NCBI RefSeq assembly: GCF_000264995.1
Contig: NW_006767438.1
Span: 536,176-600,175, forward strand
Length of the DNA: 64,000 nucleotides
DNA from: Punctularia strigosozonata HHB-11173 SS5
Lineage: Eukaryota > Basidiomycota > Agaricomycetes > Corticiales > Punctulariaceae
Direction of reading: 5' to 3'
Shown here: piece by piece, positions 4,348-58,893 of the stretch
How positions within the stretch are numbered: the first letter of the stretch is position 1
Layout of the letters: each line of letters starts with the position of its first letter
Made by a program: the position numbers and the translations under genes
The notes under the pieces: model-generated
Database searches by the model: none
Seen by the model: the letters and a program-made list of their open reading frames with translations, nothing else
Told to the model about the DNA's origin: nothing

Positions 4348-7300
4348 GGTGCAGGATCATGATCTAAAGTACGCGGCACGGTGGGCCGTGGGGGGGGGGG
4401 GTAAAGACTTTGGGTGGTTCATCAACTTAAGTATCATTCGTGGAAGGTTTTGATGGCAGTCGTGCTGTGTCGCTCCTGTGGAAGGCAGTATGGATCCCAA
4501 CTCAATAGCGCTATACTGCGAACATGAGTGCACGGCCGCCTACGTGTATTCCACGCGCGTGGGCTATCCTTTGACATAGCCATCCTATACTTGATGGTAT
4601 AGCTCGGACACTGGAATTTTACAGCTGCCCAAGCGCCACGTGCAGCCGCCGCCACACTTCCGATTCAGAACGCAGTGCTTTTTCTATCATTGCAAGGGCT
4701 GTGTTCCGTACCGTGGGGTGTTATTCCGACAACCCCCCAGGAGTTTGTCTGTGAATGTCGATTGAACCCTCGAGTAGCAGCTTCTCCTGCTGCGCGGCTG
4801 GACTGCCCTTCAGCGGTTCAAACCCCTGAGCTGTAATGCTGCACCCAGCGTACTGTAGCATGTGTTCACAAGGCACTTCGCGAAGCATGTAAATCAATGC
4901 GCTGCATTGCCTGCATGCATAGGCGATGGATACTGCTGAGATGATCACTTTTTGCCATGCAATCGGGCGGCGACATCGACTGCCCTTTTCCTCGCAGGGC
5001 TTGAAGAAGGTCAAAAGGCAGGCATAAGGCTGCTGGGCGAAGCGAGCCCCTGGACCAATCGCAGGCTTAATGAATGGCCCCAACCTGTGTTTTCTCGAGC
5101 TCGGCAGAAACTCGATCTTGCTCCTCATGAAAGGAGTAATCCGCGGTCGTACGTGGTGGTGCTGGTGCGGCCTGGGTACCGCCCGCGGAACCGCCCTTGT
5201 CCAGTCTCAGCGATGCATCCATATTCAACGTTCTCTGCTCACACCATTATCCAACAGGGGGTGAAGTCAAGCCGTTCCCGTGTTAGCGTCGCAAATGCCA
5301 AGGTCCGCCTCTCGCATTCGTCATTTCACGCCATTGGTCGCTTCCTCCGGTAGCTGTTTGGACGCAGTCCTTTCGATGTCCTGGACGATAACGCGTGCCG
5401 TCGAGGACTGTGCTTTGCGGACGACGTAACCTCGGCGTCACGCAGACGGACGGGTGCAAACATAAACAAATACCGGAAGCAGATCGGTTATCTGCTGCCT
5501 GCGTTCCGGGTCTCTGGCCGACGGTCAATCATCCCATCTTCCATGTCAGACCGTCGTTTCCGTCAATTGATACAAGCTCTGTTGGCCGTTGAGGACTCGA
5601 TTGAGTCCTGGCCTTCTTTCACGCTGTCTTTTGCGGGACGGGATTGTACCGGAGCTTGGAGCTGAATGGAGCCTGCGACTGACCAGGGTAGGGCTTGCGG
5701 AAGCTTGTAGGTTAGTCGATGAGTCGCTTCTGCCGGTGGAGATTCTGCGTTGGTACAGAGGTCGTATGCGTGTGCTTATTGTGAATGCCGCATAGACTCT
5801 AGAGCTCGATGGGCTTCGGTGGACCTAGAGCAATCTGGGGGAATTAGGCGACTGGTGCATGATCTGGAGACATATGTGGAGGTATGCGGGGTATTTCATT
5901 AATGATGGATGACGCTGCGCGTTGGTCATCTCGTCTTATGAAGCCCGTGTTCGCGAGGATTGACGGGCTTCCTAAGATATTGCTGCGTACATTAGGCGGG
6001 TTGTCTGGTCGCATTGGGATGCTGGAGGGCACGATAGGTACATGTGATGATTCGCTGGACGATATCGTGCCGCCCGCCGCCGCACTTATACATAGATGCA
6101 TGGGCACAGTACGCATGATTAAGTTTCACGTCGAAGTACGTAACGTTGGCCTGGTCCAGATCATGTTGCCATCAGATCTAGCGATTTCGATGTCGTCGAC
6201 GCCACGATGTTGCTCACGTTGCGCAGTCGTCGTCACATATGATGGTGGTGACGCGGTGGTGAAGTAGTGGCCGCACGAGCAGGTAACTTACAAGCACCGG
6301 AGAAATCGCGGGTTTGATACGCAGGACATCATCCTGCGGATGCATTGTCATGGTCTCTGCGATTGCATTCGCGCCGTGAGATTGCGAAATGTGCGGGCGG
6401 GCTAATGGAGAAGAGAAGAGAGTATGAAGATCAAGACGAAGGAACGCCGCAGAGGAGGCCAGGAACGCCGGAGATGGTTGGTGTAACGAATCAATCCAAA
6501 CAACGCCAGAAGCGAGGATAAGCCTTGCGACTGGGGCCTGGCGTGCCGCTCTGAATAGGTGCTGGCCGCGGCCGCGCGAGGCGGAGGTGAAGGGGCGGTG
6601 GTTGGATATCGGCAAGTGGCAATATGTCTGATCGCATTACAACGGTGGTGCCAAGTCAGGTTCCTGCAAGTATCAGCAGCCGCGAAGTCGAACCGAGACG
6701 GATCGTAGGGTTTGGAGCAACCGCAGAGGGTAGGTGGAGCGTGAGGGATTACGTTGGGTTATTCATGGTCAGAGACAAGAGGCAGTTACGATTCGCGAAA
6801 CCGGCTTGCGGAGAGCGCCGTCCGGGGTTCGCGAATCGATTCCGGCGAGATTGGCGTGAGCGCTATGCGCTGAGATAAGGCTGAGGCGCTGAGTACAGCG
6901 CTCCGGCGCGGTCGATTCCAGAAGCCGCGGCGAGCGGGTTTCGTCGATCTCGCTGTTGACTTTGTAAGTAAGACTCGGGATGCATGGCGTGTTCAGAGCA
7001 TTTGCTATAGGGCGGCCAGAACGTTAACCGGTGTGAACGCCATCACGACGAGGGGTTAAGTAATGCACACGAGGAGGACGGATACGATACGCGGATATCT
7101 AGAAGTGGATATACTGAGTAGTAGGCGCTATCGGTCGGTGGCTGGAGGAGCATAAGAGAACCCTCCCGTCGTAGTACCCTTTCTGGATATGCGGCCGCAT
7201 GTCAAAGCGGTATCCGCGCTTGCCCGAGCGTGAGTCGCGGGTGGCTGACATGATCCCTGTCTGAGCCGCCCTTGTGTGTGCTGGCCAACACTCGCTCGCG

Positions 7301-47205: not shown

Positions 47206-49503
47206 TTAGTCGTCCTCGGAGATGCCAGCGGGCCGCTTGAGGTCGCTGACGTCGACACCAGGCAGAGGCCACTTGCGTGCGAACTCCTGCACCTCCTTCT
47301 TGAGCTCCTTCACCTGCTTGTAGCCCTCAAGACCTTCTCCGCCCTGGGTTGCGACCCTATACCCACTGATGAGCATCGATCGGAAAGGTGGACCACGCAG
47401 TGAAGGCGTACCTGACAAAGTCCTTGAGTAGCTTGCTGCCCGCCTCTTTCTGGAGTACGAGCGCAATCTGCACCGCGCGGTTCAGGAACTCGCCAACCTG
47501 CTTGATGTCGTCCTCAAGCATGTTGCGCGACGTGAGCGCCGACGTGCCGAGACGGATACCGCCAGGAACCTGCGCAGAGGTATCGCCAGCCACCGCGTTC
47601 TCTGTGGCCCCACGGTTGGTTAGCTTCTAAATCCGGGCAACGATGGGACGACAAGACGCACTGTTGATGGTGATACCGACAAGATCGCACAGCTTCTCGA
47701 GCTTAGAGCCGGTTAGCTTGAGCGGGCGCAGGTCCCAGAGCACGAGGTGGTTGTCCGTGCCGTTCGTCTGAAGCTTGTAGTCCTTCGCGACGAGGGTCTC
47801 AGCAAGCGCCTGAGCGTTCTTGATCACCTGCTTTGCGTACGCCTTCCACTCCGGCTGGCAGGCCTGGTGCAGGGCCGTTGCGATACCGGCGATGGTCTAA
47901 CCATCACAACGGGGGTCAGTTTACAATGTCCCAAGATGGGGATTAAGCGAGACATACATTGTTGTGGGGACCACCCTGGCAAGCAGGGAAGACAGCGTCG
48001 TTGACACGCTTCTCAAGGTCATCGGCGTACTTGCTGTCCTTGCGGAAGAAGATCAAGCCAGCGCGAGGTCCACGAAGGGTCTTGTGCCTGTTCAATAGTC
48101 CCATTAGGTCTCGCATGCTTCTTGATGAATATAAGAAAAAAAAGAAAACTCACGTAGTGGTCGTGACGACATCGCAGTACTGGAACGGATCGGCGAGCTC
48201 GCCGGCAGCGACGAGGCCAGACGTATGCGCGATATCGGCCATCAAGAACGCGCCGTGCTCGTCAGCTGTCTTGCGGAGCTCAGCGTAGTCCCAGTCGCGA
48301 GGATAAGCCGATGCGCCGCAGATGATCAAGCGGGGCTTGAAGATGCGAGCCTGAGTCGCGAGGCCTGGGGTAGGGGTGGTTGTTCAGCAAGACGGGTCGG
48401 TAATGTAGGAAGATGGAAACAAAGCAAGACAGGAAGAATCAGATCAAACGTTCTCTCATTGGATTGGGGCGTTACTCCCATCCTGTCGACGAGCTGGGTT
48501 TGTTCGAGCAAATAGCTCTTTATCGTCATTTGAAGGCAGCATATGTGCACCGATACGGGAAAGGAGAAGATAGAAGAAGCGTAAGAAGAGTCCTACATAC
48601 CCTTATAGTCGATGAGCTGGTTGGAGTGGTCGATGGAGTACGGGAGGGACTGGAAGTAAATGGAGGATGCAGTCATCTTCTTCTTCGCGGTCTGTGACGA
48701 TCAGAACTATTAGTCGAAATGACGTTATGTGAATGAGAACGTCGCGTACGTAGTAGCCGTGAGTGAGATGACCACCATCAGGGAGGCCGAGACCCATCAG
48801 GCGGTCCTGGGGCTGGAGGAGCGCCGTCAAGGCGGCGAAGTTGGCAGTCTGCCGGAGACAATGAAGTTAGCGAAGTGCCAATATAGTAATGTGCAAAAGG
48901 GTGAAAGCGAAAGTCTACGCAGATGTACGTAACGGGAGGGCTAGTCGGAAGTACGTACGCTGCCGGAATAGGGCTGCACGTTGACTCCCCACTTAGCGGG
49001 GTCAAGGTGGAACGCCTGCAGGGCACGCTTGCGGCACAGGACCTCAAGCTCGTCTATCCATCTGATAAAATGGTAAATGAGTACGCTCAGACGGAGAGGA
49101 TACGGTGTCTGAGACACTGAGATTGGAACGATACGCACTCGTTACCGCCGTAGTACCGATGGTCCGGCAATCCCTCAGAGTACTTGTTGGTGAGGATAGA
49201 ACCGTTGGCTTGCATCGTCGCCAGCGACGTCAAATTCTGAGATATGACCCGTGAGCAACACGTCTAACAAGCAGCGCCCGCGATAGATTAGCTGTGTACC
49301 TCGCTGGCGATCAGCTCGAGACCGGAGAATTGGCGCCATGTCTCCTTGTCGATAATGTTCTGCACCTCCGGGTCTGCCTCGGCGAGAGGAGTGTAAAGGA
49401 TCTTGTTCTGTATAATAAGACGAAAGTCAGTCCTCTTGATCGTCAGTTCCATTCCTCATGGTGAACGCACGAAATCCGGGGTGGACCCCAATGTGGAGGC
49501 CAT
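47206..49503 (-). CDS. SHM2: Serine hydroxymethyltransferase, cytosolic type
   Basis: About nine exons encode a PLP enzyme that converts serine and tetrahydrofolate to glycine and methylene-tetrahydrofolate, the main entry to one-carbon metabolism. A short first exon ([11 protein letters not shown], from 49503) joins [15 protein letters not shown]. Then come [27 protein letters not shown], the PLP-lysine motif [14 protein letters not shown] and [18 protein letters not shown], ending [10 protein letters not shown]. No mitochondrial presequence precedes the conserved start, so a cytosolic form is likely. All active-site motifs are present. Confidence 0.93.
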
Positions 49504-50245: not shown

Positions 50246-52760
50246 CTAAGCCTTCTTCGGGAAAAACCTGCCAAACCGTCCCCTCGCCTCCTTCTTCTCT
50301 ACCGCGGCGCGCACCTCGCGCTCGACCTCCTCGTCGCTGATACTTCCAATCGCATACCACGCCACGGTCACCATGCCCAGTGTCGCGGTGAACACGCAAG
50401 CGAACATCGCGCCGATACCCTTCGGGTGCCAGCCGTTGTTCTGCGGGTACGGGCCGAGGGTGAGCCCGGACAGGTCCGTCGGGTCGGTGTGCCCCGCGGC
50501 GTTACCCGAGGTGAGCTGACCCATAGCAGCGCACTGGTCGGCGAGCTCGGTTGGGATGGTGTATTGGCCGGAGGAGATCTGCTTCTGCATTTCCAGCGGT
50601 GCTTCGATGAGCTGCATCGCGAGACCGACTTCGAGATGCCATTCGATGTGGCCTGTGAAAATACGCGTCAGTGTATCGGTAGTATGCGCAGTGGCGACCC
50701 GGAGGACGCACAATGGAACAACCATGTTCCTGGGTTGTCCGCGACGAGTCGGAGCGTGACTGAGTTCATAGAGGGCACCTGCACCGTGTCACGACGGATC
50801 GGGTTCGCTTGGCCCTCTTCGACAGGCGGGTTCAACGTAACGTTGTCGCTCGTGTAGTCTTGCGCCCGCCCGATGATCTGGTATTTATGACCGTGCAAAT
50901 GGCTAAAGGTGGGAGTAAATCTCGGTTTCTGCGTACGTGACATCGGAAATAAGAGAGATACCCACAAAGGATGCTTGCCAGCGTCGCTGTTCTTAACCAC
51001 GATATCCACCACGTCCAAATGATCGACGACAAACGCCAACGGTCCGTACGCATCGGCGATGGTAGCGTTCGAGCCGAGGGTGGCAGCCGACAGAACGGTG
51101 GGGACAAGTCCGGCGTTCCATGTGATCCCGTTGAACATAGCGTGGTTCGTGCCGTCGTCCATCGTGTCGAAGCTTACCTAGACATGAAATGCATGATCAG
51201 CGACTCCGCTATGCAAAGAAATATTATTTTATTATTTGAATCACCTCCAGCTCGATCTTCTTGTTCGCCGGCGGGAGCTGCGCCTGAACCTCGACGGGAA
51301 CAAGCGCCGTGTCGTTGGTGTCGTGGAATGCATCCACACCACCAAGATCTTTGGTGCTAGCGCTCGAATCATACGTGATCGACGACGTTACATCTTCAGG
51401 TGATTGTGAGGTCCTCGTGCTCATTGTCAGAAAAGGCGTCGAGGCTTACTGGGGTTGAGCGCGGCAGGGACGGTATCGAACATGTCCGTGTCCATAGCGC
51501 CGTGGATTGCCCAGTTGCTCGACGTGTCGTTCCGTGCGGTGACGAGGACAGAGTAGCGCTGGGCGACGGTAAGCGAGAGCAGGTCGATAGGGGACTCTTC
51601 TACATCCGTCTAAGTCGTGAAAATCAACACATGAGCCTGCAAGTTAACAAATAAGGGTAAGACACATTCCACGTACTCCATCGACTTCGATGATGCGCAT
51701 GTCGTGACCGTCGATCCAGAAGAAGAACGCTGCAAATGCAGATACGTTCACAACGCGCAGACGATATGTTTTTCCAGGTTCGAACGGTAGAGTCGCGTTG
51801 TCTGTACGCCAAAGCGAAGCGAAAACGTCTGTCAGACGCTGCTGGGAGTAACAACGGAGAGCATAGAGCAGTACGCACCATTGTAACCGACGGAGGCCGT
51901 AACAGGGTCGGGGCTCGTTCCGCTCTTAGGGCCCAGATATGTTCCGTTTTGAGCGAAGTAAATAAGGGCCGAGTCTGATATGCATTCACGTTCCGTTCAG
52001 TCACTGCTGAGATCACCAGTAGAAGAGGACAATGAGAGGCGTACCAGGTACGGGTTCCGCTCCGCCGGGGTTGGCGACGCTGATGAATTCTTTGAGGAGA
52101 ACATCATGTTCCTTATGATACCAGTCGGAGAGGATGACAGTGTACTCCTCATCGTAGGAGTGGACCTCTTTTGTCGGGTGAATCACCACGGGTGAGCGGA
52201 GACCGTCCGCGTATTGTCCCTGTAGATAGGAAGGGCTGTCAGTAGGGTGATAGGTGGAAGATAACTCAGGATAATCAGGATGATAGAAACACCCACAGCA
52301 GAGTGAGAGTGAACCCAGTACGTGCCCCATTGGTCGCTCTCGTTGATGGGAACGACGTATGTGAAGCTCGCGCCGGGCGGGACGCCGCACTGCGAGACGC
52401 CACGAGCGCCGTCCATCCAACTTGTCGAGTTGAAGAACATGCCGTGGTGGTGGAGCGTCGTTGGTACATCGAGCGAGTTGGTGGCGTGCACAATGAGCGT
52501 GTCGTTCACCGTCACATCAATCGGCGGGGGCCTGTACCAGCAATACACGAGCGCTCGTCAATAACGTATTCATAGGAGTGGAACAGAGAACAAACGTACG
52601 GAAACGTGCCATTGACGCCAATAACGCGCCGCTGGTACAGCCCGTCGGGGCTGGCGTTTTGGACGTAGGTGATGTTCCACCAGAGCTCGGTGACGTCCGC
52701 GATGACGGCAGGGAGCGCGGCGAGGGTCGTCAGGGAGAGGGAGGCGAACGACGTCCTCAT
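50246..52760 (-). CDS. FET3: FET3-type multicopper ferroxidase
   Basis: About ten exons (first 52600-52760, second 52297-52531) encode roughly 600 residues. The enzyme oxidises Fe(II) to Fe(III) at the cell surface and hands it to Ftr1. A signal peptide (MRTSFASLSLTTLAALPAVIA) starts the protein. The four copper clusters are visible: TLHHHGMFF, YWVHSHSA, FHLHGHKYQ and LFHCHIEWHLEVG. LSDWYH and NPGGAEPVP are typical of ferroxidases rather than laccases. A C-terminal membrane helix (GAMFACVFTATLGMVTVAWYA) and a basic tail (RGRFGRFFPKK) give the type I anchoring expected of Fet3. It is transcribed away from FTR1 across a shared 1.16 kb promoter full of GATA-type sites, so iron-repressed co-expression is likely. 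All ligands are in place. Confidence 0.93.
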
Positions 52761-52835
52761 CCTCGACGAAGCTGCGGAGGGGAGGGGAGATGAGATTATG
52801 GAGGGCGGGAGATGGGAGGGGGCGTACCGTCTGGC

Positions 52836-52846
52836 TTATCAGATAA
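52836..52846. promoter_or_regulatory. Palindromic double GATA site (TTATCAGATAA)
   Basis: Two overlapping ATCWGATAA matches, one on each strand, form a perfect palindrome, 76 bp upstream of the FET3 ATG. ATCWGATAA is the target of iron-sensing GATA repressors (SRE, SreA, Urbs1) in fungi. Confidence 0.7.
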
Positions 52847-53109
52847 GTTTTTTGGGGATCGAGTGGTTTGATCGAAGACGCAGCTTCGTGTGTGTCCGAG
52901 ATGGACCGGGCCTGGAAAGGGATCCGTAAAGCTCCGCAAGCTCTGTGTCTGGGCGCAATCAAATCAGGCACGCGGAGTGCGAATGTCACCGAGGCGGTCC
53001 TCGTAGGTGTTGGTTGCTCAAGGGGGAGCGCGAGGCACGGGGTTGGTGAGCTCGGACGCGTTTTCCTCTCCTTGTGCTTTGTGGAGGACGGGGAAACGGC
53101 ATGCGGCGT

Positions 53110-53118
53110 ATCTGATAA
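53110..53118 (+). promoter_or_regulatory. ATCTGATAA iron-GATA site
   Basis: Exact match to ATCWGATAA in the FET3/FTR1 divergent promoter. Confidence 0.65.
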
Positions 53119-53583
53119 ACGCTTCCAGGAGACAACGCGGGAGAAGAGAAGTCCATCTAAACTCGGTTGAGTTTCGCCGCGGGTTTCGGGTACCGCGTGC
53201 ACATGAGCGCATCCACCTGCCCCTAGCGGCCTTCTGTCTTCGCAATAAGTTCGTAACCTTATGCTGTTTGGCACCCCAGTGATGGAGTCTGACGTAAGAG
53301 ATGGCCAGTGTCGGTTTCCTCGAGACGATGCCCATTTGAAAGACAGCACTGAGATGATTCTGCAAGCTCGACGAGGACAACGTCGGGAAATGGCGTGATT
53401 CGTCTCCAGCGGCCGTACGCTTTGCCGATTGTCTTAAGCGAGCTTTCTCCCGGTAACTCAGCGGTGAAGTTGCAGGACGGTGCATCGCGAAATGAGTGGC
53501 GCCAAAAAGGCTCAAAATCGGAGGTGGTGAGCGAACAGCGCCGCCCAAGATTGCCGTCTTTGGAAATCCTGATTGGGAGAGTG

Positions 53584-53613
53584 ATCTGATAAGCCCGAAG
53601 CGTAATCAGATAA
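53584..53613 (+). promoter_or_regulatory. Paired iron-GATA sites
   Basis: ATCTGATAA at 53584-53592 and ATCAGATAA at 53605-53613, spaced 21 bp start to start, about two helical turns, so both face the same side of the DNA. Confidence 0.7.
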
Positions 53614-53647
53614 GGACCAAAAGTAGATCAAACACACGGCACGGATC

Positions 53648-53656
53648 TTATCAGAT
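53648..53656 (-). promoter_or_regulatory. ATCTGATAA iron-GATA site
   Basis: TTATCAGAT on the plus strand, an exact ATCWGATAA match on the minus strand. Confidence 0.65.
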
Positions 53657-53761
53657 GCGGTCTCGAGGCGCGCGCCCTTCTGTCAATCTATTTGGGGTCT
53701 AGTCCCGAGGGCGCCCCGAAGAATCCCGGCATCAGGAGATCGAAGGTGCAGCGCGCGAGGG

Positions 53762-53770
53762 TTATCAGAT
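53762..53770 (-). promoter_or_regulatory. ATCTGATAA iron-GATA site
   Basis: Exact match on the minus strand, 151 bp upstream of the FTR1 ATG. Confidence 0.65.
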
Positions 53771-53920
53771 AGCAAGAAAATACCTCTCCTCCTCCGCGCC
53801 GCCCACCCCAGAGCCCCGCTGGTCAAAGCAGCCTCTGCACGCTAGCTTCACGCCGCTCTTGGTTCCCCAAGTCCTCGCCCATTCCCAGGACCTCGCAAGA
53901 CCCGTAGACCAGAGCTCGAC

Positions 53921-55426
53921 ATGGCGCGCAACCTCTTCTCCGTCCCCATCTTCTTCATCGTCTTCCGAGAGACACTCGAGGCGGCCATCATCGTCGCCGT
54001 CCTCCTCGGTCTCGTCGAGCAGATCGTGCACGACGACTCCGGCTCCTTGGCCGGCTCCACGCCCGTCGCCCCCGCGACCACCGTCGCTGAGGAGAAAAAG
54101 GACGGTGCAACGCCTGCCGCGGAGGTTCCCGAGCTTGAGCGAAGCTCAATGGAGGACAGCGTCGACGAACTTGACCAAGCTCACCTCGCTGAAGCCGACG
54201 CGCACATCAACCGCAGGAGACTGATCCGCAAACTCCGTATCCAGGTTCGTCGCCTCGTAAGGAAGATGTCTTGAGTGGGCTAACACCGTACACAGATTTT
54301 CTCGGGTGCAGCGCTGGGTTTGCTCCTTGCCCTTGCGATCGGTGCAGCCTTCATCGCCGTCTGGTTCACTCAGGCCTCCAACCTGTGGCAGAAGAGCGAA
54401 GAACTTTGGGAAGGTACGTCAGCTCCGTCGTTCACTCTATCACTTGTTCAAAAACCCACGTCTCGCTCCGCGTGTAGGTATCTTCTCCCTGATAGCGTCG
54501 TTGATGATCTTCGTGATGGGCATCACCATGCTCAAGATGGACCGTGCCAAGGCGAAGTGGCGCGTCAAGCTTCAGCGCGCGTTTGAGGTTCGTGGAGCAA
54601 GTCCTTGCTCTGTCCTCGTCCATGGTCCTCATCGTAAACGGGTATCCTCTCCCAGAAAAACACTCATGTCACTGGCGATGCTAAAGCTGGAAAATGGGTC
54701 CTCTTCATCCTTCCCTTCATCACCGTGCTCCGTGAGGGCATGGAGGCCGTCGTATTCGTCGGCGGTGTCTCGCTCGGCCAGTCCGCGACCTCTATCCCAA
54801 TCGCCGCCATCGTTGGCCTCATCTGCGGTCTCGTCTGCGGCGTGCTCATCTACTTCTTCGCGTCCCGCTCCGCCCTCCGGGTCTTCCTCGTCGTCATGAC
54901 CAACTTCATCCTCCTCATCGGCGCCGGTCTGTTCTCTAAGGCCGTCTGGGATTTCGAGGAAAACGCATTCAACAACCTGTGAGTACCCTCGTGAAGGTGT
55001 GTATGCCTTCAGGATCGGGCGCTGACGCGGTGCGTAGTCTCGGCCAGGACGTTGACGACGCGGGAGGAGACGGTCCCGGCTCGTTCGACGTGCGCAACTC
55101 CGTCTGGCATCTTGACTGCTGCAACCCCGAGAACAACCTCGATGGCGAAGGCTGGCTCATCTTCGGCGCCATCTTCGGCTGGACCAACTCCGCCACCGGT
55201 AAGGATGCCCTTATCCCACATTCCCTCTCGAAACAGGGGAGGCTGACTGGTCTGTTTTCGCTATGTAGTCGGCAGCGTGCTGTCGTACATATTCTATTGG
55301 CTCGCGGCAATCGCCGTGCTGATCTTCATGAAGTTCAGAGAGGGTCGCACGAAGGTGCTCGGTTATGAGAGCGCCGCAGGCAAGAGGAGGCGGGTGGATG
55401 CGGACACGCCTGCCTTGCCGCACTAA
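53921..55426 (+). CDS. FTR1: High-affinity iron permease FTR1
   Basis: Six exons (53921-54244, 54296-54413, 54478-54587, 54656-54978, 55038-55198, 55269-55426) give 397 residues, phases consistent. Ftr1 moves Fe(III) made by Fet3 across the plasma membrane. The iron-binding R-E-x-x-E motifs are RETLE (residues 16-20) in the first helix and REGME (210-214) in a later one; the second has Met where Leu is usual. Seven hydrophobic helices can be traced, among them FIVFRETLEAAIIVAVLLGL, ALGLLLALAIGAAFIAV, FSLIASLMIFVMGITML and LSYIFYWLAAIAVLIFM. An acidic cytoplasmic loop after helix 1 and a basic C-terminal tail are present. It pairs with the divergent FET3, and the two proteins assemble together in other fungi. 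Confidence 0.96.
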
Positions 55427-56958: not shown

Positions 56959-58893
56959 ATGATCTCTATGCTTGTCTTCGCCATCCTCGGCGCTTCTTCC
57001 CTTGCCGCTGCCGCTCCGGTAACCAAGCCGTTTGTGGCTGCACGCCAAGCCACGGAGAACTCGACCTCTACCGCCGTCGCTGCCACCACCACCTCCGCTT
57101 CGTCAGCAGCTGCTGCCAGCTCAAGTTCAACCGACTTCCACCTTCAGAATGGCTTCGACGCACAGTCGCTGAACGCGAAGTTTGCTACTCTCGCCTCGAC
57201 AGACTCATGCACAGGTGCGTCCACACGTTCAGGTTTACCTTCATTCCATTCTGACGCAGTTTTCCTCTCAGATGGTGAACAAGCATGCGTCTCTAGTTCT
57301 TTCGCGCAGTGCGTTGGTGGAACATGGGCCACGACGCAGTGCCCGGGTGGGCTCTCGTGCTTTGCCTTACCGCTCGTAAACAAGGCCGGCACCAGCATCG
57401 GATGCGACACCCAGGCTGATGCAGAGGCCCGGATCGCCGCAACCGGCGCAACCGGTGGCTTGACCGGCTCTGGTTCGTCCCCATCCAGCGCCGCTGCCCC
57501 CTCATCTGCCACCGATGCTGGGACCACGTCAACATCCAGCTTGATCTTCGTCCCCGTCACTACCATCGACACCGAATCCACGGTTTCTGCGCCGGTTACC
57601 CTCACGATCGTAACGACCATCTTCCCCTCTGCATCGACTGCTGTCGCCACCGACTCTGCAGTCTCATCGGCCGCGGCATCTGCAGCTACATCCTCCGCAG
57701 CTGCCGCCTCCGTCACGTTCGCGCAACTGTCCACCGTAGACCCCATCGCGTCTGGCGCAGCAACCGACAGCGCATCCGATGCTGCTGACCCGTCCACCTC
57801 TGCGGCCACCACTGCCACTGCCGTCGCGACCTCGACCGGCGCGTCTGTGACAGGTACATTCGAGCAAATCTCGACCGTGGAGTCGATCGCCTCTACCGCC
57901 GCTTCCACCACTGCCGTTGCCGTCACATCTTCGTCTGAGAAGAGCGCATCCATCACCGCGGCGCCCACCGCTGGCGAGGCGGTCTCCACCGTAGAGGCCA
58001 TCCACAAGCGCGCTACTGCCGTTTATGGCTACGAGAACAAGCCTGTGTTTGTCGCACCTGGAAAGAGGCAGATCTCCGTCATCGGCCTGACCACTGTCCC
58101 CGCCAGTGCGGTCTTCACTTCCGCCGCTGCTTCGACGGCCTCCGCAAGTGCTAGTGATGTGGCACCCACTGAAGCGAGCGCGTCGTCCGACCCCATCCTG
58201 TCGCAGATCTCCGGTGCGATCGCGAGCGCGACCGACTCTACGTCCGTGGCCAGCGTCAGCACAAGCGTCTCCGCCTCCGACGCAAGCGCAAGCACGGTCA
58301 CCCAGTTCGTCACGGTTGTGTCCACTGTCTTCGTCACAGGCACCGACGCTATCCAATCCTCCGCGTCGTCCTCTGTGGAGTCCACTGCGCTCGTCTCCGC
58401 GACCGGTGTCCTTGTCGGTGCCTCCGCGAGTGCGAGCGCGAGCGCCTCTGCGTCGGCAGTCAACCAGGCGGCAGGCTCCTCGATCGTGGCGTCTGCACCC
58501 ACTACCATCCTGCTGAACACTGCCAGCGCGAGCGTCGTGGCTGCCTCTTCGGCCGCAGCAAGCTCTGTCCCAGTCCTTGCTTCTGCCTCGGGCATTGCGT
58601 CCGATTCGTCTGCCGCCGTCACTACCGTAGTCGCGTCGGCCACGCCCAGCGTCGCAGTTTCCGCTTCGGTGCCCGCCGTCTCCTCCGTTGCCGCTTCCTC
58701 GATCTTGAGCTCGAGCAGCGTCTCGGTTTCCGAATCCGCCAGCGCAGCGCCCTCCAGCTCCTCTGCGACGGGAGGCCGGTTTACCTTCATCACCGCGAAC
58801 CCGACCACTACCAGCGCCCCCGCGGCTACTGCCACTGCTCCCGAGTCCCTATCGAGCCTCGACATCTCGGAGCTCCTCACGGCTACCATCTGA
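56959..58893 (+). CDS. Secreted Ser/Ala/Thr-rich wall-type protein
   Basis: Two exons, 56959-57214 and 57272-58893, joined by a 57 bp intron that is itself stop-free, give 625 residues. A signal peptide (MLVFAILGASSLAAA) leads to a conserved Cys-containing domain (LNAKFATLASTDSCT, GEQACVSSSFAQCVGGTW, CFALPLVNKAGTSIGC). I associate this with basidiomycete CBM19-like (chitin-binding) proteins, with moderate certainty. The remaining 440 residues are a low-complexity stalk of Ser, Ala, Thr and Val, probably heavily O-glycosylated. In its middle, two Lys-Arg sites bracket a short ordered segment (ATAVYGYENKPVFVAPG). The end carries no obvious GPI signal. The ATG at 56959 is preferred because the signal peptide follows directly. 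Confidence 0.78.
   Translation: MISMLVFAILGASSLAAAAPVTKPFVAARQATENSTSTAVAATTTSASSAAAASSSSTDFHLQNGFDAQSLNAKFATLASTDSCTGASTRSGLPSFHSDAVFLSDGEQACVSSSFAQCVGGTWATTQCPGGLSCFALPLVNKAGTSIGCDTQADAEARIAATGATGGLTGSGSSPSSAAAPSSATDAGTTSTSSLIFVPVTTIDTESTVSAPVTLTIVTTIFPSASTAVATDSAVSSAAASAATSSAAAASVTFAQLSTVDPIASGAATDSASDAADPSTSAATTATAVATSTGASVTGTFEQISTVESIASTAASTTAVAVTSSSEKSASITAAPTAGEAVSTVEAIHKRATAVYGYENKPVFVAPGKRQISVIGLTTVPASAVFTSAAASTASASASDVAPTEASASSDPILSQISGAIASATDSTSVASVSTSVSASDASASTVTQFVTVVSTVFVTGTDAIQSSASSSVESTALVSATGVLVGASASASASASASAVNQAAGSSIVASAPTTILLNTASASVVAASSAAASSVPVLASASGIASDSSAAVTTVVASATPSVAVSASVPAVSSVAASSILSSSSVSVSESASAAPSSSSATGGRFTFITANPTTTSAPAATATAPESLSSLDISELLTATI

Follow-up and report, generated by a model that had tools for sequence, protein, structure and literature searches.

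The window, the whole 64,000-nucleotide stretch of Punctularia strigosozonata DNA analysed here, holds two divergently transcribed iron-uptake genes, FET3 and FTR1, and the question it raises is whether the interval between them is a shared control region that answers to iron, and if so, which regulator would read it. An earlier note had reported seven exact matches to ATCWGATAA between the two genes, two of them overlapping as a palindrome. Our pattern scan recovered all seven, at six places between 52836 and 53770 (935 bp), and the overlapping pair is TTATCAGATAA at 52836-52846. We infer, at a probability of roughly 0.87, that this interval is a shared iron-responsive control region, in which a GATA repressor of the type encoded on contig C5 would act on the ATCWGATAA sites to shut off FET3 and FTR1; binding, repression, iron response and co-regulation are here all predictions from sequence.

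FET3 and FTR1 have their ATGs at 52760 (minus strand) and 53921 (plus strand), and the ends of both genes agree between a splice model and a separate, uncalibrated gene finder. The predicted FET3 protein carries the Pfam domains Cu-oxidase, Cu-oxidase_2 and Cu-oxidase_3, has yeast FET3 (1zpu) as its nearest relative in the PDB (E 6.6e-107), and was judged by eye to possess a membrane anchor. In the alignment with 1zpu, acidic residues are retained at positions counted as yeast E185, D278, D283 and D409, which presumably have functional roles in the yeast enzyme. The FTR1 protein matches the Pfam FTR1 domain (E 1.7e-59), and this is the only FTR1-family gene found in the genome. Yeast FET3 E185 is also named in the available text of PMC3129051. 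The three multicopper oxidase domains, the FTR1 domain and the 1zpu match uphold the names that the earlier note had given to the flanking genes, and with an anchored ferroxidase beside a permease, the pair makes up a divergent FET3-FTR1 reductive iron uptake module. Downstream of FTR1, at 56959-58893, we also observed a 644-aa open frame rich in Ser, Ala and Thr, whose start looks signal-like by eye and which matches nothing in Pfam.

Table 1. Features of the FET3-FTR1 locus (window positions) and iron genes beside palindromes elsewhere in the genome (by locus).
Feature	Position or locus	Strand	Remarks
FET3, membrane-anchored multicopper ferroxidase	50246..52760	-	10 predicted exons, 636 aa; splice model
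Shared divergent interval	52761..53920		1,160 bp, GC 0.57, bounded by two start codons
Palindromic site TTATCAGATAA	52836..52846		two overlapping ATCWGATAA (52836-, 52838+); 76 bp from FET3 ATG
ATCWGATAA site ATCTGATAA	53110..53118	+	pattern scan
CCAAT box	53572..53576	-	only one in the interval; beside 53584 site
ATCWGATAA site ATCTGATAA	53584..53592	+	end 329 bp from FTR1 ATG; first of 21-bp pair
ATCWGATAA site ATCAGATAA	53605..53613	+	second of 21-bp pair
ATCWGATAA site ATCTGATAA	53648..53656	-	core 45 bp from 53605 core
ATCWGATAA site ATCTGATAA	53762..53770	-	151 bp from FTR1 ATG
FTR1, iron permease	53921..55426	+	6 predicted exons, 397 aa; RETLE and REGME motifs
HapX with Hap-binding motif (Hap4_Hap_bind)	L011		palindrome ~208 bp ahead of predicted start
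VIT1/CCC1	L013		palindrome 1,478 bp ahead; sole copy found in genome
Heme oxygenase	L015		palindrome 264 bp ahead of predicted start; sole copy found in genome
SIT-like MFS transporter (C3)	L019		two palindromes 31 bp apart, ~828 bp ahead
Ferric reductases, two in tandem	L020 (C3:2725753-2735752)	-	palindrome 689 bp from first

The packing of sites in this interval is exceptional and far beyond chance. When the 1,160-bp interval was shuffled 5,000 times with its dinucleotides preserved, 4,957 shuffles contained no site, 43 contained one and none contained more, and shuffles of the whole window averaged 0.78 sites with a maximum of 4 (0 of 100 reached 8). Every GATAA word in the interval is extended to ATCWGATAA (7/7), versus 1/81 for the window outside it (Fisher p ~1e-9). 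Across the 33.57 Mb of the genome there are 353 strand-hits, which makes about one per 95 kb, and at this density 0.0098 matches would be expected in 935 bp; the earlier note's figure of about one match per 65 kb, drawn from base odds, was thus of the right order of magnitude. The density check that it proposed, run in part, also came out in its favour, as ATCWGATAA was absent from the 20 other predicted intergenic intervals of this window (27,573 bp), which were drawn by a purpose-written, uncalibrated gene finder. One further match in the window, at 49060, falls inside a predicted serine hydroxymethyltransferase gene and probably arose by chance. Genome-wide, a reversed-pattern control gave 116 matches, while the window shuffles (0.78 per 64 kb) scale to about 409; since the two controls disagree, we make no claim of over-density for the motif across the genome. 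If about 409 matches are expected from shuffles, many single genomic matches may be chance, and it is the packing at FET3/FTR1 that stands out.

The arrangement of the sites would serve both genes. Four lie 151-337 bp from the FTR1 start, and with the palindrome near the FET3 ATG, each gene has sites close to it. A HapX composite consists of CCAAT-N11-13-RWT, with the half-site at a fixed distance from the CCAAT box. We found none of this type in the 1,160-bp interval. We also observed that GCGTAATCWGAT is common to window positions 53600-53611, at an FTR1-side site, and to C11:293188-293199, at the core of a SIT promoter, a match longer than the core requires.

To look for a regulator, the genome was searched with the GATA profile (PF00320), which gave 13 matches, 12 of them above cut-off. 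A gene on C5 (~264-268 kb, minus strand) resembles SRE/Urbs1 and has two GATA fingers, at C5:266527 and C5:265616, both above the PF00320 cut-off, with the cysteine-rich motif CPGDGRCDGTGGSKACSGCPTYNN between them. The gene is known from its fingers and the intervening motif, the gene finder having produced no single clean spliced model. Two fingers flanking a cysteine-rich region are described as typical of the iron-regulatory GATA class in the accessible portion of PMC2610380, and by these features the C5 gene is a predicted SRE/Urbs1-type factor. No such motif was seen by eye in the translated stretches of the other two-finger GATA genes, on C14 and C9. That ATCWGATAA is the known target of SRE/SreA/Urbs1 repressors, as the earlier note had stated, agrees with the consensus in print (PMC2610380, as excerpted) and with the SRE-type gene on C5. 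Autoregulation of the SRE gene through ATCWGATAA was considered and rejected, with no site in the 4 kb read, ~1.2 kb of which lies ahead of the predicted start.

We then examined the full palindrome, TTATCWGATAA, across the genome. It occurs at 36 places, compared with 1 for the reversed pattern and 7 for the dinucleotide-matched control TATTCWGAATA. We read the first 20 palindrome loci in contig order, leaving aside the window's own. With 58% of these loci taken up by predicted gene spans, the palindrome falls outside such a span at 16/20 (binomial p 0.0007). No further ATCWGATAA was found within 10 kb at 18/20 loci, so dense packing is uncommon and no general mark of the palindrome. A repeat origin was rejected: the flanks differ among the 22 palindromes read, indicating no repeat family. 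No structured RNA scored above the gathering score in 12 of the 20 loci (L009-L020). As a separate observation, two full palindromes lie 3 kb apart at C10:464876 and 467871.

The neighbouring predicted protein was tested against Pfam at 17/20 of these loci, the other three (L009, L016 and L022) having no close gene start. Clear iron genes were found at 5/20 (Table 1) and not at the other 15, of which three are those without a tested neighbour. At L013 a divergent oxidoreductase is closer to the palindrome (65 bp) than VIT1/CCC1 is. The SIT-like transporter gave no solved relative at E 0.001, so its label rests on Pfam MFS_1/TRI12 and our reading of the sequence. At L020, each ferric reductase has ATCWGATAA sites ahead of it, and the second has a core pair at the 21-bp spacing also seen at FET3/FTR1. 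Two further neighbours are possible members of the iron set, a cation-efflux gene at L012 and a sucrase/ferredoxin-like gene at L021. Three further loci (L010, L024 and L025) have palindromes near nitrogen genes, encoding N-acetylglutamate synthase, an arginase-family protein and glutamate dehydrogenase, which suggests that other GATA factors may use the site. The palindrome of each of these three stands at about 4995-5005 of the locus, and a nitrogen GATA factor possibly uses the same palindrome. The remaining seven loci hold genes for malate synthase, a second MFS transporter, CRAL-TRIO, aldo-keto reductase, LRR, ELYS and lectin proteins.

Iron genes were also collected without using the sites, and 3/7 of these carry ATCWGATAA, against ~1.6% expected for each. 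Upstream of the strongest ornithine-oxygenase match (labelled SidA, on C16) are two ATCWGATAA sites, 575-737 bp before the first exon matched, and two further cores. Among the SIT paralogs, sites stand ~670 bp ahead of the one on C11 and ~350 bp ahead of that on C2, which is only 22-35% identical to the query. The other four carry none: the SIT paralog at C3:25530, the SRE gene, and two ferric-reductase-family genes on C1, which have no site ahead of them, although one has a match ~1.5 kb behind it. Four weaker PF13434 matches (L045-L048) carry no ATCWGATAA and were left out of the SidA count, and a weaker SIT match at C3:1016069 (27-28%) has no site near; with it included the count becomes 3/8. 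Contigs without a listing of single sites hold another five ferric-reductase loci and a pair of weak SIT matches, which stay outside the seven-gene count. A pooled count of 9/13 iron promoters (p 4e-14) was dropped as a test, because five of the nine had been picked for having a site (FET3/FTR1, the SIT on C3, heme oxygenase, VIT1 and the first ferric reductase) and the second reductase shares a locus with the first. The motif recurs at other iron genes of this genome, against which stand the 15/20 palindrome loci without a clear iron neighbour and the 4/7 independently collected genes without a site.

In several of these promoters the sites come in pairs, and we examined the spacing of ATCWGAT cores by a genome search. 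This gave 30 near pairs (7-37 bp) and 33 far pairs (38-68 bp), the latter including seven repeat copies (by eye) and three pairs that span a middle core. Eight near pairs are at iron genes, with spacings of 21, 21, 24, 29, 29, 30, 31 and 32 bp: 21 at FET3/FTR1, 31, 30 and 29 with 24 at three SIT-like genes, 29 and 32 at SidA, and 21 at the ferric reductase. A visibly complete site is present in 12/30 near pairs versus 4/33 far pairs, which speaks for close pairing; two more near pairs are complete only when sequence outside the match is counted. About 2.5 complete-plus-core pairs would be expected at 7-37 bp, roughly half of them visible by the same rule. Close pairs of complete sites thus appear to be genuine. 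A reversed-pattern control gave 5 near pairs and 1 far pair, and since it undercounts chance pairs, we relied on it in neither set.

Before the far search we had stated that helical phasing would give peaks at 42, 52-53 and 63 bp, and that close cooperation would give fewer pairs beyond 37 bp. The far set displayed neither a lower raw pair count nor periodicity (Monte Carlo p ~0.7 at 38-68 bp). In the near set, periodicity at 10.5 bp reached p 0.06 for all 30 pairs and 0.02 for the 14 with a complete site, or 0.14 and 0.03, respectively, once spacings <14 were removed, and the bands of 20-22 and 28-33 bp were picked post hoc, after inspection of the data. A helical-spacing rule is suggestive and post hoc, and it did not hold when carried to longer distances. 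We hold it doubtful, if worth stating, that a spacing grammar exists in which the repressor reads paired or tripled ATCWGAT cores of iron promoters at distances of 21 or ~28-33 bp, corresponding to two or three helical turns, and in which a full palindrome acts by itself as a strong site, bringing HapX, heme oxygenase and CCC1 under control. Were it true, it would be as if two molecules, or both fingers, occupied one face of the DNA. Elsewhere, at C12:984172-984236, we observed a 65-bp stretch with three ATCWGAT cores, spaced by 30 and 28 bp, resembling the promoter of the C11 SIT paralog.

The region combines sites beyond chance with the iron-uptake genes that they would drive, and the same genome has a gene for the putative cognate regulator. 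With enough iron, an SRE/Urbs1-type two-finger GATA repressor would occupy the ATCWGATAA sites, and FET3 and FTR1 would be turned off together. Upon iron starvation the repressor would be released, after which an activator, possibly HapX with the CCAAT complex, could take over, so that ferroxidase and permease would be made in step. The same element near a wider set of iron genes would bring these into the scheme.

The sites might instead be used by another GATA factor, such as a nitrogen regulator of the AreA/Nit2 kind, and the region would then answer to nitrogen or some other cue. Several GATA factors do exist, as indicated by the 12 of 13 GATA matches above cut-off, and palindromes also stand near the three nitrogen genes described above, but it is the extended ATCWGATAA form that is packed here, in 7/7 GATAA words, and the other multi-site places with a known gene are at iron genes (SIT on C3, C2 and C11, the ferric reductases, and SidA), although several places fall outside that set. 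Taken together, we regard control by such a factor as improbable. It appears less probable still that the GATA sites are secondary in this interval, a reading to which the HapX gene (Hap4_Hap_bind) and the CCAAT box beside the 53584 site lend something, yet a single CCAAT without a HapX-type composite in 1,160 bp compares poorly with seven GATA sites. Finally, that the sites clustered by chance or base composition, without function, is scarcely credible. The motif is genome-wide no denser than window shuffles predict, but 0/5,000 interval shuffles had at least two sites against the seven seen, counts that already contradict chance, and the palindrome occurs at 36 places against 7 for its matched control.

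An iron-responsive region under an SRE/Urbs1-type repressor has counterparts in other fungi, and the literature already covers ATCWGATAA, repressors of the SRE type and promoters shared by FET3 and FTR1. Among the papers found to contain the word ATCWGATAA, in a collection without most subscription papers, no title names a basidiomycete. The original paper on fet3-ftr1 of Phanerochaete chrysosporium is reportedly Larrondo 2007. In that basidiomycete, as here, fet3 adjoins ftr1, and iron lowers their expression there, a likeness by description (PMC3129051, as excerpted). The available part of PMC8152254 describes basidiomycete iron metabolism as rarely studied.

The ATCWGATAA consensus itself comes from the SreA regulon of the ascomycete Aspergillus fumigatus, where the accessible text describes it as over-represented upstream of SreA-regulated genes and SreA as repressing uptake and siderophore genes at iron sufficiency (PMC2610380). 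The excess reported there, 5.4-fold, is a mean over 49 promoters, to which a single packed interval cannot be directly compared. Binding sites of sid1 in U. maydis and of fio1-fip1 in S. pombe also conform to the consensus (PMC2610380, same portion). In Cladophialophora carrionii, as in our window, FtrA/FetC diverge from one interval, and both SreA-type (HGATAR/ATCWGATAA) and CCAAT motifs are reported for its regulated promoters, with ftrA1 and ftrA2 induced on iron starvation (PMC10382037, in the part available). What sets our interval apart from that ascomycete's is its single CCAAT and the complete palindrome close to FET3. That a palindrome stands next to HapX is consistent with two published accounts, one of SreA-HapX feedback in A. 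fumigatus (PMC10382037) and one in which iron was measured to repress hapX in Agaricus bisporus, a basidiomycete (PMC8152254), as these are given in the excerpts.

The Urbs1 regulon of Ustilago maydis (fer1/fer2 and sid1) resembles this locus in its SRE-type GATA regulator, its clustered ferroxidase and permease genes, and its siderophore genes under the same control (PMC10672361, PMC3129051, PMC2610380, each in part). It differs, as described there, from the present case, in which seven predicted sites share one interval and palindromes stand near HapX, heme oxygenase and VIT1/CCC1. What the genome offers is a compact candidate regulon with one element, spanning FET3/FTR1, siderophore synthesis and transport, ferric reductases, HapX, heme oxygenase and a vacuolar-type iron transporter, along with a checkable spacing idea for ATCWGAT cores. 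Set beside these systems, the FET3-FTR1 interval seems to exemplify well an iron switch already known from fungi, and not a new kind of system.
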